The notes beneath the pieces are model-generated. The model was not told the origin of the DNA. It saw only the letters and a program-made list of their open reading frames with translations, and searched no databases. A stretch of DNA of 50,441 nt, from positions 1-50,441 of the forward strand of contig CAMLRV010000001.1 in the NCBI GenBank assembly GCA_946482495.1, read 5' to 3'. The position numbers were made by a program, and so were the translations under genes. This DNA is from an uncultured Flavobacteriia bacterium. GTDB lineage: Bacteria > Bacteroidota > Bacteroidia > Flavobacteriales > Flavobacteriaceae. Below are positions 7,786-13,234 of the stretch, in pieces (the stretch's first letter is position 1; each line of letters begins with the position of its first letter).

Positions 7786-9762
7786 ATGGAAACAAAAAAT
7801 GGGGTATCTAATAAAGTTACAGCAGCAACCTTATTAGTAGCATTAGGAATTATTTACGGAGATATTGGAACTAGTCCACTCTATGCCTTAAAGGCGGTTA
7901 TAGGAACAAGAAAAATTGATGAGGTTCTAGTTTATGGCGGACTTTCAGCCATTTTTTGGACATTAATTATTCAAACTTCTATTAAATATATTTGGCTAAC
8001 CTTAAAAGCAGATAATAATGGTGAAGGTGGAATTTTCTCTTTGTATGCTTTAGTTAAAAGATACGGGAAAAAATTAGTCATTCCAGCCATTTTAGGAGCT
8101 ACCACACTTTTAGCTGATGGAATCATTACGCCCCCAATTTCAGTTGCTTCTGCTGTTGAAGGCTTAGGAATGGTAAAAGGATTAGAAGGTACCATAGTAG
8201 CCGGAAACAATGTCGCAGTAGGTTTAGTAGTTTTAATTTTGTCTTTACTTTTCTTTTTTCAACGTTTCGGAACACAAGTTATTGGTAAGTTTTTCGGCCC
8301 AATAATGGCGGTTTGGTTTGGTATGTTATTAATTGTTGGTTTTAATCAGATACTAAATCATCCAGATATTTTAAAAGCCTTAAATCCATATTTTGCCTAT
8401 GAAATGTTAACGCAATACCCAAAAGGTTTTTGGTTGTTAGGTTCGGTGTTTTTATGTACAACAGGAGCTGAAGCGTTGTATTCAGATTTAGGTCACTGTG
8501 GAATTAAAAACATCAGAATCAGTTGGATTTTTGTAAAAATAAGTTTAGTTACGGCGTATTTAGGGCAAGCCGCTTGGTTAATGCATCAAAATGAAGCTTT
8601 CTTAAATGGAAGAAATCCTTTTTTCGAAATTATGCCTTCTTGGTTTTTATTGCCAAGTATAATTATAGCTACATTAGCTGCTGTTATTGCTTCACAAGCT
8701 TTAATTAGCGGAAGTTATACTTTAATTAATGAAGCCATCAACTTAAACTTTTGGCCCCGAGTTGCAGTGCGTCAACCTTCAGAATTAAAAGGACAAATTT
8801 ATATTCCAAGTGTGAATAACGTACTTTGGTTTGGTTGTATTTTAATGATTTTGTACTTCCGTTCTTCTGAGCATATGGAAGCTGCTTATGGTTTTTCGAT
8901 TACAATCACCATGATGATGACCACTTTGTTGTTAGGTTATTTCTTGAAATTCAGATTGAAGTGGAACAAATATGCAGTTTATCTAATTGTTGGTTTATTT
9001 GCCATCGTAGAATCTTCATTTTTCATTGCGAACGTGGCTAAAATTAAGGAAAGATGGATGTTCTTATTTTTCGAATTAGGAATCTTTATGATCATGTACA
9101 TTTGGTTTAATGCCAGAAAAATTCATAACCGATTTACCAAATTTACTGAGTTGGGAAAATACAGTCATCAATTAGCAGAATTAAGCGAAGACGACAGTAT
9201 TCCAAAATTCGCTACACATTTAATTTATCTTTCCAAAGCAGATAGAAGACATCATGTGGAAGAGAAAATTATGAAATCAATTTTTTCAAAAAAACCGAAA
9301 CGTGCCGACGTATATTGGTTTTTACATCTAAACAGAACCAATGAGCCTTACACGCTAAGTTATAATGTTTCAGAATTAATTGACGATAAAGTGATTAAAG
9401 TCAATATCAATGTTGGTTTCAGAATTCAGCCAAAAACCGAGCTATATTTCAAAAGAATTGTGCAAGAATTAGTCGAAAATAAAGAACTGAATCTACACAT
9501 TCGTCCAGACGGTTCTACTAAATATAATGATGAGCCCGATTTTAAATTTGTAGTGATTGAAAAATATCTTTCTGTTGAAAACGAATTTAAAATTAATGAC
9601 AGTTTGTTATTAAACAGCTATAAACACTTAAAGAGTTTTGGAATTAGTGATGAAAAAGCATTTGGTTTAGATAAAAGCGATATTGTAATTGAACATGTGC
9701 CATTATTATATCAACCGATTACTAAAATTGATTTAACGAGAGAAGAGTATGAAAACAGATAA
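7786..9762 (+). CDS. kup: Kup-family potassium uptake protein
   Basis: Low-affinity K+ symporter of the inner membrane (KUP/HAK/KT family). 658 residues with the N-terminal GDIGTSPLYAL signature, about 12 hydrophobic segments up to about residue 445, and a hydrophilic C-terminal cytoplasmic domain (about 450-658) as usual. It follows a kdpDE-like pair and probable KdpE operators, implying control by K+ starvation or turgor. The next gene overlaps its 3' end by 14 bases, then a porin follows, so the three form an operon. Confidence 0.95.
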   Translation: METKNGVSNKVTAATLLVALGIIYGDIGTSPLYALKAVIGTRKIDEVLVYGGLSAIFWTLIIQTSIKYIWLTLKADNNGEGGIFSLYALVKRYGKKLVIPAILGATTLLADGIITPPISVASAVEGLGMVKGLEGTIVAGNNVAVGLVVLILSLLFFFQRFGTQVIGKFFGPIMAVWFGMLLIVGFNQILNHPDILKALNPYFAYEMLTQYPKGFWLLGSVFLCTTGAEALYSDLGHCGIKNIRISWIFVKISLVTAYLGQAAWLMHQNEAFLNGRNPFFEIMPSWFLLPSIIIATLAAVIASQALISGSYTLINEAINLNFWPRVAVRQPSELKGQIYIPSVNNVLWFGCILMILYFRSSEHMEAAYGFSITITMMMTTLLLGYFLKFRLKWNKYAVYLIVGLFAIVESSFFIANVAKIKERWMFLFFELGIFMIMYIWFNARKIHNRFTKFTELGKYSHQLAELSEDDSIPKFATHLIYLSKADRRHHVEEKIMKSIFSKKPKRADVYWFLHLNRTNEPYTLSYNVSELIDDKVIKVNINVGFRIQPKTELYFKRIVQELVENKELNLHIRPDGSTKYNDEPDFKFVVIEKYLSVENEFKINDSLLLNSYKHLKSFGISDEKAFGLDKSDIVIEHVPLLYQPITKIDLTREEYENR

Positions 9763-10025: not shown

Positions 10026-11369
10026 ATGAACAAAATAATAATTTTTACACTAGCACTTTTAGCGTCAATTTTATCAAACGCACAAACTGAAAAGGATACT
10101 ATAAAAACCAAAACCCCTTTTGAAAACTATGATACCACTTGGATAAACGGACAAAATCGTCAAAAAGATTTTCCATTAGTTTTAAAAGATAAAGAAGGGA
10201 AAACTATTTTAACTGGTGTGGTTTATTTAGATGGTAATTTCAATTACAATTTCGCACATCCAAAAGACAATACACAAACTATTTCTGCGGTTACAGCAAG
10301 AAGTAATGAGTTTAGTTTGGCTTTGGCAAGTATCGGAATCGAATCGAATTATAAAAATGCAATAGGACGCTTATGGTTGCAAACGGGAAGTATGCTAAAT
10401 ATAGTTCAAGAAACAGATGGTTCCGTAACTAGAGGAAGAAATACTAGTACAGGAAATTTGAAATTTATTAGAGAAGCCGCTGCAGGTTATCATTTTGATG
10501 TGAATTATGGTTTAAATTTCGAAATGGGAATTTTTATGAGTTATATTGGTTTGGAAAGTTATCTAACGCAAGAAAACTGGAGTTATCAAAGAAGTATGGC
10601 TTGTGAATTTACACCGTTTTATTTTCAAGGTGCAAGAGCACAATATTATCCAACTAAAAATTATAGAACCGAACTTTGGCTGTTGAATGGATGGCAAACT
10701 TATAACAGTTGGAGCAATCATCCTGGAATTGGAAATTCAAATTATTATCGTCCAAATGAAAACATACAATTAGTGGCTAATTTTTATTATGGTAAAGATA
10801 GTAAAAGTGGCACGCCAGACTTGTCAAACGTAATGCGTTTTCATCATGATAATAGTATTGTGTATCGTTATTTTAAAACCGAAAACAAAAAAAGAGGTTT
10901 GTCGCAAGCGGCGTTTAGTTTGAATAATCATTATGGTTTTCAGCAAGGTGATGGTGTAAAATCTAAAGATAATTTTATGGCAGGAACTTCACTTGTAAAC
11001 CGATTATGGTTCAATGCTAACAAAATTGGAGTTACTACACGTTTCGATTATGTGACCAATCCTGGAGGTTATTTATCTTTTAATCCGGCACAATCTGGAG
11101 CGATTCCGAATGATTATGAAGTGGCAATTTCAAATGGAGAAAAATTAAATATGAAACAAGTTAGTGCGACTTTAGATTTTATGCCAAGTGATTTTGTAAC
11201 GTTCAGAATTGAGTATGCTTACAGAAATGCGAGTATTCCCTATTTTACAGGAAGTGGTGGAACAACTTCACAAACTGGATTTTCAAATGATGTATTAGAT
11301 CCAACTTGGAAAGCCGATTTGAAGAAAAATGAAAATAGAATTATTTTAGCGATTAACTTTAGATTGTAA
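10026..11369 (+). CDS. Outer-membrane beta-barrel porin (BBP2/OmpL-like)
   Basis: 447 residues with a signal peptide (cleavage probably after LSNAQ, residue 20) and alternating amphipathic strands ending in RIILAINFRL, a C-terminal strand with terminal hydrophobic and aromatic residues suited to the Bam machinery. Sequence style (FIREAAAGYHFDVNYGLNFEMGIFMSYIG, here described only by pattern) resembles the BBP2 putative porins of Bacteroidetes. It starts 1 base after the small gene that overlaps kup, so it probably lets K+ or a counter-ion cross the outer membrane. As I recall, Bacteroidetes kdp operons often carry a porin too. The operon ends in a strong hairpin. Confidence 0.75.
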   Translation: MNKIIIFTLALLASILSNAQTEKDTIKTKTPFENYDTTWINGQNRQKDFPLVLKDKEGKTILTGVVYLDGNFNYNFAHPKDNTQTISAVTARSNEFSLALASIGIESNYKNAIGRLWLQTGSMLNIVQETDGSVTRGRNTSTGNLKFIREAAAGYHFDVNYGLNFEMGIFMSYIGLESYLTQENWSYQRSMACEFTPFYFQGARAQYYPTKNYRTELWLLNGWQTYNSWSNHPGIGNSNYYRPNENIQLVANFYYGKDSKSGTPDLSNVMRFHHDNSIVYRYFKTENKKRGLSQAAFSLNNHYGFQQGDGVKSKDNFMAGTSLVNRLWFNANKIGVTTRFDYVTNPGGYLSFNPAQSGAIPNDYEVAISNGEKLNMKQVSATLDFMPSDFVTFRIEYAYRNASIPYFTGSGGTTSQTGFSNDVLDPTWKADLKKNENRIILAINFRL

Positions 11370-11410: not shown

Positions 11411-12463
11411 TTATTCTTCTTCGCTTAAAGCATTCCAGCCTCTGGCTTTTAATTCAATTTTTGTATTGGCGCGAGTCACTAAATGAATACCTTCACTTTC
11501 CGCAACCATATGTCCAATTACTGTGAAGTTCGGATTGCCTTTGATTTTTTCGAAATCATCCATTTTAATCGTGAAGAGTAACTCGTAATCTTCACCACCG
11601 TTTAAAGCAATGGTAGTAATATCTACATTAAATTCTTCACACACATTAATTAATTGTGGATCAACCGGAATTTTTTCTTCGTATAAATTACAACCAACTT
11701 TACTTTGCTTGCAAATATGCATGATTTCAGATGACAATCCGTCCGAAATATCAATCATAGCAGTCGGTTGAATTTCTAATTTTTCTAAAATTTCTTTCAC
11801 ATCATTTCTAGCTTCTGGCTTCAATTGACGTTCAATTAAATAGGTGTAATCATCAAGTATGGGTTGGTTGTTTGGATTCACTTGAAATACTTGTTTTTCT
11901 CTTTCCAAAACTTGCAAGCCCATATATGCCGCACCTAAATCGCCAGAAACTACCAATAAATCGGTTTGTTGTGCACCATTTCTGTAGGCGATTTCATCTA
12001 AATTTGCTTCACCAATTGCGGTAATACTAATAAGTAATCCTTTTTGAGAAGAAGTGGTATCGCCACCAATCACATCAACATTATACGCATTGGCTGCTAA
12101 AGTAATTCCAGCAAAAAGTTCCTCTAATGCTTCTAAAGGAAATCGGTTAGAAACAGCAATCGAAACCGTAATTTGAGTTGGCTTAGCGTTCATTGCACAA
12201 ATATCTGAAACATTAGCAACAACCGCTTTATAACCCAAATGTTTTAAAGGCATATAGGCTAAATCGAAATGCACACCTTCAACCAATAAATCGGTTGAAA
12301 CCACAACTTTTTTATCAGCAAAATCTAAAACAGCGGCATCGTCGCCAATACTTTTCAACGTGCTTTCTTGCGAAATTTTAAAATGTTTGGTTAAATGATC
12401 AATTAAACCGAATTCACCTAAACTAGCAATATTTGTTTTTTTCTGATTTTTATCTTCTAACAT
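11411..12463 (-). CDS. thiL: Thiamine-monophosphate kinase
   Basis: Makes thiamine diphosphate from thiamine monophosphate and ATP. 350 residues, slightly longer than E. coli ThiL. The N-terminal SIGDDAAVLDF (D41, D42) metal site, the GGDTTSS loop, and DISDGLSSEI are the family's conserved acidic motifs. The rest follows the PurM-like ATP-binding fold. It is a single-gene unit with a -7 box at 12478-12485 and a shared terminator. Confidence 0.95.
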   Translation of the reverse strand: MLEDKNQKKTNIASLGEFGLIDHLTKHFKISQESTLKSIGDDAAVLDFADKKVVVSTDLLVEGVHFDLAYMPLKHLGYKAVVANVSDICAMNAKPTQITVSIAVSNRFPLEALEELFAGITLAANAYNVDVIGGDTTSSQKGLLISITAIGEANLDEIAYRNGAQQTDLLVVSGDLGAAYMGLQVLEREKQVFQVNPNNQPILDDYTYLIERQLKPEARNDVKEILEKLEIQPTAMIDISDGLSSEIMHICKQSKVGCNLYEEKIPVDPQLINVCEEFNVDITTIALNGGEDYELLFTIKMDDFEKIKGNPNFTVIGHMVAESEGIHLVTRANTKIELKARGWNALSEEE

Positions 12464-12477
12464 GGAAAAATTTTTTG

Positions 12478-12485
12478 CAAAGATA
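12478..12485 (-). promoter_or_regulatory. thiL promoter -7 box
   Basis: On the minus strand TATCTTTG matches TAnnTTTG, with a TTTG about 16 bases upstream inside a T-rich run. The ATG lies only about 15 bases downstream, giving a very short leader. Confidence 0.55.
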
Positions 12486-12576
12486 AAGTATTTGAGAACA
12501 ACAAAAAATTAAAGATGAGTTGTATATTTTAACGGTTAAATAATATCTATTGTGATTTAATTTAACGTTGGAATTA

Positions 12577-12584
12577 TAGTTTTG
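12577..12584 (+). promoter_or_regulatory. -7 box for a plus-strand small RNA
   Basis: TAGTTTTG fits TAnnTTTG. A TTG lies 24 bases upstream (12550-12552), slightly long, with an alternative TTT at 18 bases. No protein gene follows on this strand before a strong terminator at 12735. Confidence 0.45.
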
Positions 12585-12587
12585 CCC

Positions 12588-12760
12588 TGTTAAGAATTCA
12601 AACTTTTGTTTAGTAGTTTTTTGTTTGTAATTCAGTAACAAATTGGTTGTGTTTTTTAGGTGTTAGTCCTAAAATTTCATTTAAAAATTAACAAAGTAGT
12701 GATTGTTGGTTGTGTGTTAAATGAAAATTCTCTTAAGGCTGGGTTCTCCAGCCTTTTTTA
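12588..12760 (+). ncRNA. Candidate structured small RNA between thiL and recX
   Basis: About 170 bases with no plus-strand gene but a promoter-like -7 box, a plus-strand terminator and nested stems. Stem 1: TGTTA-a-GAATT-CAAAC (12588-12603) pairs with GTTTG-t-AATTC-ag-TAACA (12623-12640), 15 bp at the very 5' end. Stem 2: TTTTAGG (12654-12660) with CCTAAAA (12668-12674). Stem 3: AATTTCATTTAA (12673-12684) with TTAAATGAAAATT (12717-12729), 12 bp with one bulged A, enclosing a GU-rich loop. Stem 4: the terminator. I cannot match it to 6S, SRP, tmRNA or RNase P RNA. A regulatory RNA is the best reading, unproven. Confidence 0.5.
12735..12759 (+). terminator. Plus-strand intrinsic terminator of the candidate small RNA
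   Basis: An 8-bp stem AAGGCTGG / CCAGCCTT with a 5-base loop GTTCT is followed by TTTTTT on the plus strand. On the minus strand the stem is followed by TTAAGAG, a poor tail, so it does not look built for recX, whose stop codon it touches. Confidence 0.75.
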
Positions 12761-13234
12761 TTTGTTTAATTCTTGAAGTTTATCATAAATCAGTCCCGAT
12801 TCATATCCTTTTCGAAGCAAGAAATCCACAAATTTTTTATTTTTTTTCGGACCTTTTCTTTCTTTAATAGTATCCCAGTTTTTTTCGGCTAGTGCATGAA
12901 AATTTTCTAGATAAGTTTCTTCTGAGATTTCTTTTAAAGCCAAATCGATATTTCGTTTAGAAATTTCTCTGAATTTTAATTCTTGAACAATTCTATTTTT
13001 CCCCCAGCCTTTATAATTGTGTTTGCCACGAACAAAACTTTTTGCAAAACGTTCTTCGTCAATAAATTTATGTTCAATAAGATGAATAATTATTTTTTCT
13101 TTCGCTTCTGGAATTAAGGTAAAATGAGATAGTTTTTGTTCTACCTCTTTATGACATCGGTCTTGGTACGAACAATAATATTCCATTTTGTCGTAGATTT
13201 CTTTCAAGGTAAATGCGTTCTTACTAGTTTTCAA
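12758..13234 (-). CDS. recX: RecX family regulatory protein
   Basis: Modulator that binds RecA filaments. 158 residues, all-helical, rich in basic and acidic residues. It has the three-repeat helical layout of RecX (segments YYCSYQDRCHKEVEQKLSHF, FIDEERFAKSFVRGKH and GWGKNRIVQELKFREI being the conserved core). The RFAKSFVRGKHNYKGWGKNRI stretch is characteristic. recA is not in the window. It lies alone, its start 112 bases from the divergent giant T9SS gene. Confidence 0.9.
   Translation of the reverse strand: MKTSKNAFTLKEIYDKMEYYCSYQDRCHKEVEQKLSHFTLIPEAKEKIIIHLIEHKFIDEERFAKSFVRGKHNYKGWGKNRIVQELKFREISKRNIDLALKEISEETYLENFHALAEKNWDTIKERKGPKKNKKFVDFLLRKGYESGLIYDKLQELNK

Follow-up and report, generated by a model that had tools for sequence, protein, structure and literature searches.

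A putative phosphate-controlled small RNA between thiL and recX in a narrow group of flavobacteria

What occupies the gap between thiL and recX in the DNA of an uncultured member of the Flavobacteriaceae? To our knowledge, regulatory RNAs have been little charted in environmental Bacteroidota, and this gap, part of a stretch of 50,441 nucleotides that was analysed as a whole (the window), had previously been proposed to hold an unassigned structured small RNA (the original prediction). Both neighbours, thiL and recX, lie on the minus strand, and their original naming agrees with family models: thiL matches TIGR01379 with 312 bits, above the cut-off, while recX matches PF02631 and PF21981 (RecX HTH domains), both above their cut-offs. 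Further out, beside thiL, the plus strand encodes a porin at positions 10026-11369, a beta-barrel protein assigned to BBP2 (PF07642).

The plus strand of the gap itself holds a -7 box, several stem-loops and an intrinsic terminator (Table 1). The terminator reads AAGGCTGG GTTCT CCAGCCTT at 12735-12755 and continues into a T run; both this hairpin and the -7 box are where the original prediction had placed them, and the arrangement recurs in five relatives. Since the consensus -7 box of flavobacteria occupies -12 to -5, as given in the available text of PMC9723704, the position of the box places the putative transcript start near 12589. Judged by sequence alone, some features of a trans-acting base-pairing sRNA are found in the window: its own promoter and an intrinsic terminator are present, and an ORF is absent. 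At gathering score, no Rfam family was found in the whole window, and at E values up to 10 the region 12460-12860 gave eight matches far below their gathering scores, with neither 6S-Flavo nor Flavo-1, the two families whose models had been recommended for this check, among them.

Table 1. Positions of the features discussed (window coordinates unless a locus is named).
Feature	Position	Strand	Remark
PHO-box-like units 1 and 2	TTAAC 12529-12533, ATAAT 12540-12544	+	11 bp apart
PHO-box-like unit at +33	TTAAC 12562-12566	+	perfect WTAAY in six of six copies
+22 slot	12551-12555	+	non-matching; each of the six copies scores 1 or 2 of 5
-7 box TAGTTTTG	12577-12584	+	matches flavobacterial sigma-A consensus TAnnTTTG
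Small RNA gene, putative transcript of about 171 nt	12589-12759	+	ends placed from -7 box and terminator
5' hairpin, loop UUUUGUUUAGUAGUUUUUU	12588-12640	+	predicted fold
Invariant GUUGUG, candidate pairing site	12646-12651	+	identical in six of six copies
7-bp hairpin UUUUAGG/CCUAAAA	12654-12674	+	predicted fold; pairs 12654-12660/12668-12674
Main stem 12675-12684/12717-12726 with inner 9-bp hairpin	12675-12726	+	predicted fold
Intrinsic terminator with an 8-bp stem and a 5-nt loop, followed by a T run	12735-12759	+	sequence and fold
Small ORF	L003:2719-2832, L004:2678-2791, L019:2728-2838	-	hydrophobic C-terminal half

A search with ThiL yielded 80 loci, 28 of them with recX on the same locus; the gaps of 23 of these 28 were inspected, and the window gap was compared with all 80 by blastn. 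Five relatives have the same gene at the same place, namely F. urocaniciphilum (L001), F. terrigena (L003), F. bernardetii (L019) and two metagenome-assembled genomes (L004 and L015), while L002 and L005-L007 have short gaps lacking the RNA, the four being nested among the carriers on the ThiL+RecX tree. An RNA gene present at six loci and belonging to no Rfam family thus bears out the description first given to it.

The predicted folding of the RNA upholds the original prediction in outline and departs from it in detail. On the plus strand, 12577-12770 folds at -38.6 kcal/mol (z -2.97), a value at least equalled by one of 200 shuffles. The proposed 15-bp 5' stem has its 15 bp in total, interrupted as 12588-12592/12636-12640 and 12594-12603/12623-12633; the 7-bp stem is found as proposed; and the third stem, proposed as 12 bp with a bulge, exists with 10 bp in the MFE fold, its longer bulged form competing with the 7-bp stem. 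The GU-rich loop once drawn at 12685-12716 is instead predicted to contain a further 9-bp hairpin (12686-12694/12703-12711), and the target-pairing site suggested for that loop finds no counterpart in conservation, the conserved part being the invariant GUUGUG upstream. In folds of L003, L004, L015 and L019 this word forms exactly a 6-nt hairpin loop; in the window it is unpaired when 12589-12761 is folded and partly paired in the fold of a longer stretch, and in L001 it is paired in the predicted folds.

Comparison of the six sequences gives the individual elements unequal standing. The terminator stem is paired in 94% of cells and the outer main stem in 88%, with three pairs of the latter changing on both sides, while the inner 9-bp hairpin is poorly kept (48%). 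The 7-bp hairpin is reduced to 4 bp in L001 and absent from the folds of the other four relatives; of the 5' hairpin, L001 has an inner CAAAC/GUUUG in the centroid that is absent from the MFE fold, and the relatives that bear an ORF have a different sequence there. All six copies fold better than the mean of their own shuffles, with whole-RNA z values from -1.3 (L019, p 0.10) to -4.35 (L004), and the 3' domain without the terminator ranges from -1.23 (L003, p 0.12) to -2.82 (L004), the window giving -1.39 (p 0.10). Sliding the pairing partner lowers the paired fraction from 84% to 63% or less. The covariation test that accompanied the original prediction is passed weakly: changes on both sides occur in 3 of 22 pairs, but as many arise in 121 of 500 shuffles, and the covariation score of the six sequences is equalled or exceeded in 22 of 500. 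A structure is plausible in these models, and covariation is no proof of it.

Fold energy cannot decide the strand, because the minus strand of 12560-12770 folds with a better z (-4.90) than the plus strand. This same value is what could be said for a minus-strand element (a thiL leader or the 3' end of recX) in place of any RNA gene; on the other side stand the plus-oriented promoter conserved in all six copies, the absence of a long T run after the minus-strand hairpin and the absence of riboswitch matches in the Rfam scan, and such an element appears very improbable. The assignment to the plus strand rests on the promoter and the T run, not on folding.

The strongest clue to function is the PHO-box-like element upstream of the RNA, which the original prediction did not include. 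WTAAY units recur in all six copies at 0, +11 and +33, and the first of them lies, counted start to start, 48 bp before the -7 box. Across the window and the 80 loci, TANNTTTG occurs at 1,083 sites; three perfect in-register units are present at the six RNA promoters only, and at none of the 1,083 in any of twelve shifted registers, a result that speaks to rarity only, since the motif was defined on these six promoters. Eleven of the 1,083 sites, six of which are the RNA promoters, score at least 15 of 20. A minus-strand TANNTTTG site at 8801 of the window has a PHO-box-like score of 15 of 20. A weight matrix was built from 22 low-phosphate promoters, leaving the RNA promoters out, with the 1,077 other TANNTTTG sites as background; it ranks the promoters of L003, L004, L015 and L019 above all 1,077, that of L001 being matched or beaten by 2 and that of the window by 6, although the matrix is not fully independent, since the WTAAY score was first read off the RNA promoters and the training sites were picked with it.

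The low-phosphate status of the genes compared derives from F. johnsoniae, for which the available text of PMC8115612 names the phoBR operon Fjoh_0541-0546, PhoX and others (its Table 1), and describes lipoprotein FII as a member of the phoBR operon that adjoins a TonB-dependent receptor (TBDT) and is strongly induced by low phosphate. F-type lipoproteins, collected by protein search and not by motif, were found in 17 of the 18 chosen genomes; we infer that they correspond to FII from their lipoprotein starts and gene order, rather than from comparison with F. johnsoniae sequences. At 18 of their 22 loci a -7 box is in reach, and all 18 score at least 15 of 20; with the query excluded, 17 of 21 loci do so, and these 17 are all the loci with a box in reach. 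Among 393 control ORFs (228 with a box), a redundant set from the thiL neighbourhoods of related species, 2 score at least 15 and 21 reach 13. Of the strong PhoX loci, eight in all, four show a box within the scanned stretch (scores 13, 14, 17 and 15), and the PhoX box of G001, a carrier genome, scores 13 and lacks the third unit as does the RNA promoter. Eleven further PF05787 loci (L288-L298) were weak and were not counted as PhoX; seven of them have a box (14, 15, 14, 15, 13, 17 and 8). All five purple acid phosphatases found by family have one (13, 12, 15, 15 and 13); L195 and L152 also fit, both having come from the patterns themselves.

Allowing one mismatch, the RNA-promoter pattern matched 98 times in nine genomes against 65 for a reversed control, and in seven of the nine a match directly precedes the best F-type lipoprotein gene (positions compared by eye), or six of eight without the genome that gave the query. 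With two mismatches, counts over 199 genomes approximated the reversed control by eye, and the search served as a source of leads only. Among these leads, L162, L172 and further matches place a three-unit PHO-box-like promoter at a lipoprotein of the choice-of-anchor I type (L162 matches PF22494), which, guessing from domain types, is perhaps of the kind of Fjoh_3414, a gene strongly induced by low phosphate in the available text of PMC8115612.

Two carriers possess a putative PhoB/PhoR pair. G001 and G002 have the order PF04101 glycosyltransferase, histidine kinase, OmpR-type response regulator, TBDT and F-type lipoprotein, which is the order of Fjoh_0541-0546 apart from OprP (PMC8115612, available text); the proteins with Response_reg plus Trans_reg_C and HisKA plus HATPase_c domains adjoin the TBDT in these two, the carriers among the five that were scanned for them, the TBDT of G002 being assigned from size, start and position. 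Only three sites in the two 18-kb stretches score at least 14, at the G001 TBDT and both lipoproteins, and none does so in the RNA-promoter register at the G002 TBDT. PhoU, sought as a route to pst promoters, was found in none of six genomes, five of them carriers, and PBP_like_2 matches were left out.

A PHO box at an activating position is thus found upstream of the RNA, the box being defined by co-occurrence only, and we conclude that the RNA appears to be transcribed from a PHO-box promoter whose presumed regulator is PhoB. Repeats spaced by 11 bp are a general trait of PhoB/OmpR-family sites. This, together with the fact that the evidence consists of co-occurrence with phosphate genes, would suit a promoter element of another OmpR-family regulator using the same repeat; the presence of the element at phoBR-linked lipoproteins, the G001 TBDT, PhoX and purple acid phosphatases argues for PhoB, and a different regulator seems quite unlikely.

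How far the RNA extends beyond the five relatives was approached with a covariance model built from the six copies and run on 398 Flavobacterium genomes under strict filters, with eight candidates scored per genome, settings under which distant copies may be missed. Strong matches (E < 1e-14) occur in five of the 398, the five carriers, whose recovery follows by construction from the model having been built from these copies; matches at E up to 0.1 occur in 31 of 398, and no convincing further homologue was found in this search. Of the weaker matches, 25 loci were checked and rejected, none having an upstream -7 box that scores more than 10 of 20. Two are situated at the edge of a contig; at 22 of the remaining 23, L229 being the exception, the locus closes with a terminator-like hairpin and a T run, and GTTGTG is present in three (L223, L231 and L243). 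As far as the covariance search reaches, the family would seem narrow. BLAST of the RNA against nine genomes gave a strong match only in G001, and six of the other matches, on inspection, resembled coding or unrelated DNA. The word TAGTAGTTTTTTGTTTG, tried as a family signature, was dropped (present in 4 of 199 genomes), and the pattern GTTAACNTTTAWATAA recurred, with one mismatch, in what by eye appeared to be ribosomal protein genes and was likewise rejected.

Within this narrow group the gene is probably kept by selection, since the synonymous sites of thiL are near saturation at the same distances: four-fold sites of ThiL identical to those of the window fall to 51% in L001 and 37% in L015, and the -7 box, GUUGUG and the terminator are nonetheless retained. 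The RNA block of the window and that of L001 are 74% identical over 225 aligned positions; as a counter-control, the thiL-side spacer gives 53 of 65 identities with L001 in a gap-tolerant alignment, as high as the RNA.

From the gene, its conservation and a promoter architecture common to low-phosphate genes, each demonstrated in this analysis, a mode of action can be proposed. The locus probably encodes a lineage-specific, Pho-controlled small regulatory RNA. During phosphate shortage, PhoB would bind the WTAAY repeats, which are spaced by 11 bp and extend from about -60 to -23, and would assist sigma-A polymerase in starting near 12589; the terminator hairpin would then end transcription, giving an RNA of about 171 nt that has no ORF, whose invariant GUUGUG could pair with the start regions of mRNAs having A/C-rich leaders. 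The best target candidate is the TBDT of the phoBR cluster, itself putatively activated by PhoB, and its restraint by the RNA would constitute a feed-forward brake. Given a Pho-controlled small RNA, such a brake has a little less than an even chance of being correct. Proteobacteria have stress-induced sRNAs, such as RybB and MicA, that target the mRNAs of outer-membrane proteins, and the logic of a stress-induced RNA acting on the start of such an mRNA is alike; the phylum is another, and the likeness is one of logic only.

Support for the TBDT as a target begins with G001, in which UAAACACAAC just before the AUG is complementary to GUUGUGUUUA of the L001 RNA. This complementarity was noticed first and ranked afterwards by loop duplex energy against sampled genes of the same genome, the TBDT coming 3rd of 357 in G001 and 1st of 296 in G002. 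Against 628 background start regions drawn from these two genomes, pairing of a relative's loop with its own TBDT is matched or beaten by 4 (L001), 0 (L003) and 3 (L015), within the top 0.7%, and by 60 (L004) and 86 (L019), a weak pairing at 10-14%; the window loop, set against the TBDTs of the five relatives, is matched or beaten by 1 to 15. In full-length RNA-mRNA duplexes computed without accessibility, the TBDT pairing is not significant. The leader word ACACAAC is kept in the TBDT leader of G006, a genome lacking the RNA at thiL-recX, and is gone in G009, which also lacks it; its survival in G006 indicates that the RNA is not the sole reason for keeping the leader. Among 30 start regions of the window itself, CACAAC and ACTACT each occur in one gene, which is uninformative. 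The pairing of GUUGUG with the start region of the TBDT mRNA may accordingly be regarded as a lead.

These same data leave comparable room for a variant in which a Pho-regulated RNA works otherwise, by binding protein or through targets other than the TBDT. The promoter evidence is independent of the target, two of the five carriers pair poorly with their own TBDT, and a 5' word, AGUAGUUUUUU, is common to the window, L001 and L015, all of which would accommodate such a variant; that the sole invariant word is complementary to the start of a TBDT in the same regulon, at the ranks given above for G001 and G002, speaks for the TBDT instead. We consider this variant possible, at somewhat under an even chance.

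A further complication is posed by three of the relatives. Between the promoter and GUUGUG, L003, L004 and L019 contain an ORF of 37, 37 and 36 codons, respectively, a feature absent from the original prediction; the window has none. The peptides of L003 and L019 match no Pfam or NCBIfam family, and a small-peptide search of 199 genomes gave a convincing match in the genome of the query alone, 24 further ones lying at E 0.01 or worse. Could the transcript, then, be the mRNA of a small membrane peptide under a Pho box, with the window copy a remnant that has lost its ORF and in which the stems linger? The presence of the ORF in the same transcript would suit this reading, as would the NG86 estimate for L003 against L004 (dN 0.07, dS 0.61) and the placement by MAFFT of T-rich stretches of the window, L001 and L015 on the ORF. 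YN00, however, gives the opposite for the same pair (dN 0.17, dS 0.11); the ORF-free copies keep the promoter, GUUGUG and the terminator at near-saturated distance; and on the ThiL+RecX tree L015, the window and L001, which have no ORF, branch off outside the ORF carriers, so that one gain of the ORF is simpler than repeated loss, although the window/L001 branching has low support (82/70). An origin as a peptide mRNA is thus improbable.

The regulatory RNA remains the preferred reading, and the sister species, with their ORF, may show how an sRNA acquires a coding function. SgrS/SgrT is a dual-function sRNA, and L003, L004 and L019 resemble it in that one transcript contains a conserved, structured RNA region as well as a short ORF; they differ from it in that the window copy has no ORF and in that both functions are putative here. 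In its most elaborate form, the proposal would have a PhoB-controlled sRNA, the first of the Bacteroidota met with in our searches, brake the phoBR-linked TBDT through its invariant loop, with the transcript of a sister lineage having gained a 37-residue membrane peptide and turning dual-function. Taken as a whole, this combination is rather unlikely.

The closest flavobacterial sRNA that we found described is Rfp18 of F. psychrophilum, which, in the available text of PMC9723704, likewise has a strong predicted structure and a proposed pairing with mRNA through a stem-loop, as is proposed here for the GUUGUG loop. Rfp18 is described as widely conserved in its genus, whereas strong matches to the present RNA were found in 5 of the 398 genomes sampled, a comparison made by distribution only, and Rfp18, unlike this RNA, is tied to proteases (PMC9723704, same text). 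The F. johnsoniae PHO regulon offers a likeness of another sort, in that low-phosphate genes of the same kind share the promoter box here and two carriers have the same phoBR order; the available main text of that report (PMC8115612) does not contain the words sRNA, small RNA, promoter or motif. Pho boxes are marked in general terms in the plcP gene clusters of marine bacteria, in the accessible portion of PMC4796936. In the literature searched, which was partly accessible and included few subscription journals, we found, among the papers listed, no phosphate-controlled sRNA or PHO box in Bacteroidetes or Flavobacterium and no paper that identifies the DNA box used by Flavobacterium PhoB. The analysis provides a specific box, in which WTAAY repeats are spaced by 11 bp and a -7 box stands at +48 from the first unit, and an RNA under that box with a named candidate target, all of which can be tested in soil and water strains and which bears on how flavobacteria meter their phosphate-scavenging receptors.

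Several observations were made elsewhere. G008 is a relative that lacks the RNA at thiL-recX; there, L083:1501-1521 is a 21-bp exact match to the 5' loop region of the RNA and adjoins another terminator-like hairpin. In eight of nine genomes a conserved promoter-like stretch, TTTACATTTAAATAATTCTATTTTAAATTCTATCTTTG, recurs upstream of a membrane protein that looks MarC-like on inspection (L189, L215 and further pattern matches), and pattern-fitting boxes also recur inside or beside an endonuclease III-like gene. Lastly, in other Flavobacterium a second sRNA-like unit lies about 200 bp upstream of the start of a purple acid phosphatase, at L164/L250 (the same place, in G033) and at L152 (G136); in this unit a PHO-box-like promoter is succeeded by a short T/G-rich stretch containing AAGTAGTTTTAGTTTAGTTT and by a terminator-like hairpin, after which comes a second PHO-box-like promoter, for the phosphatase.
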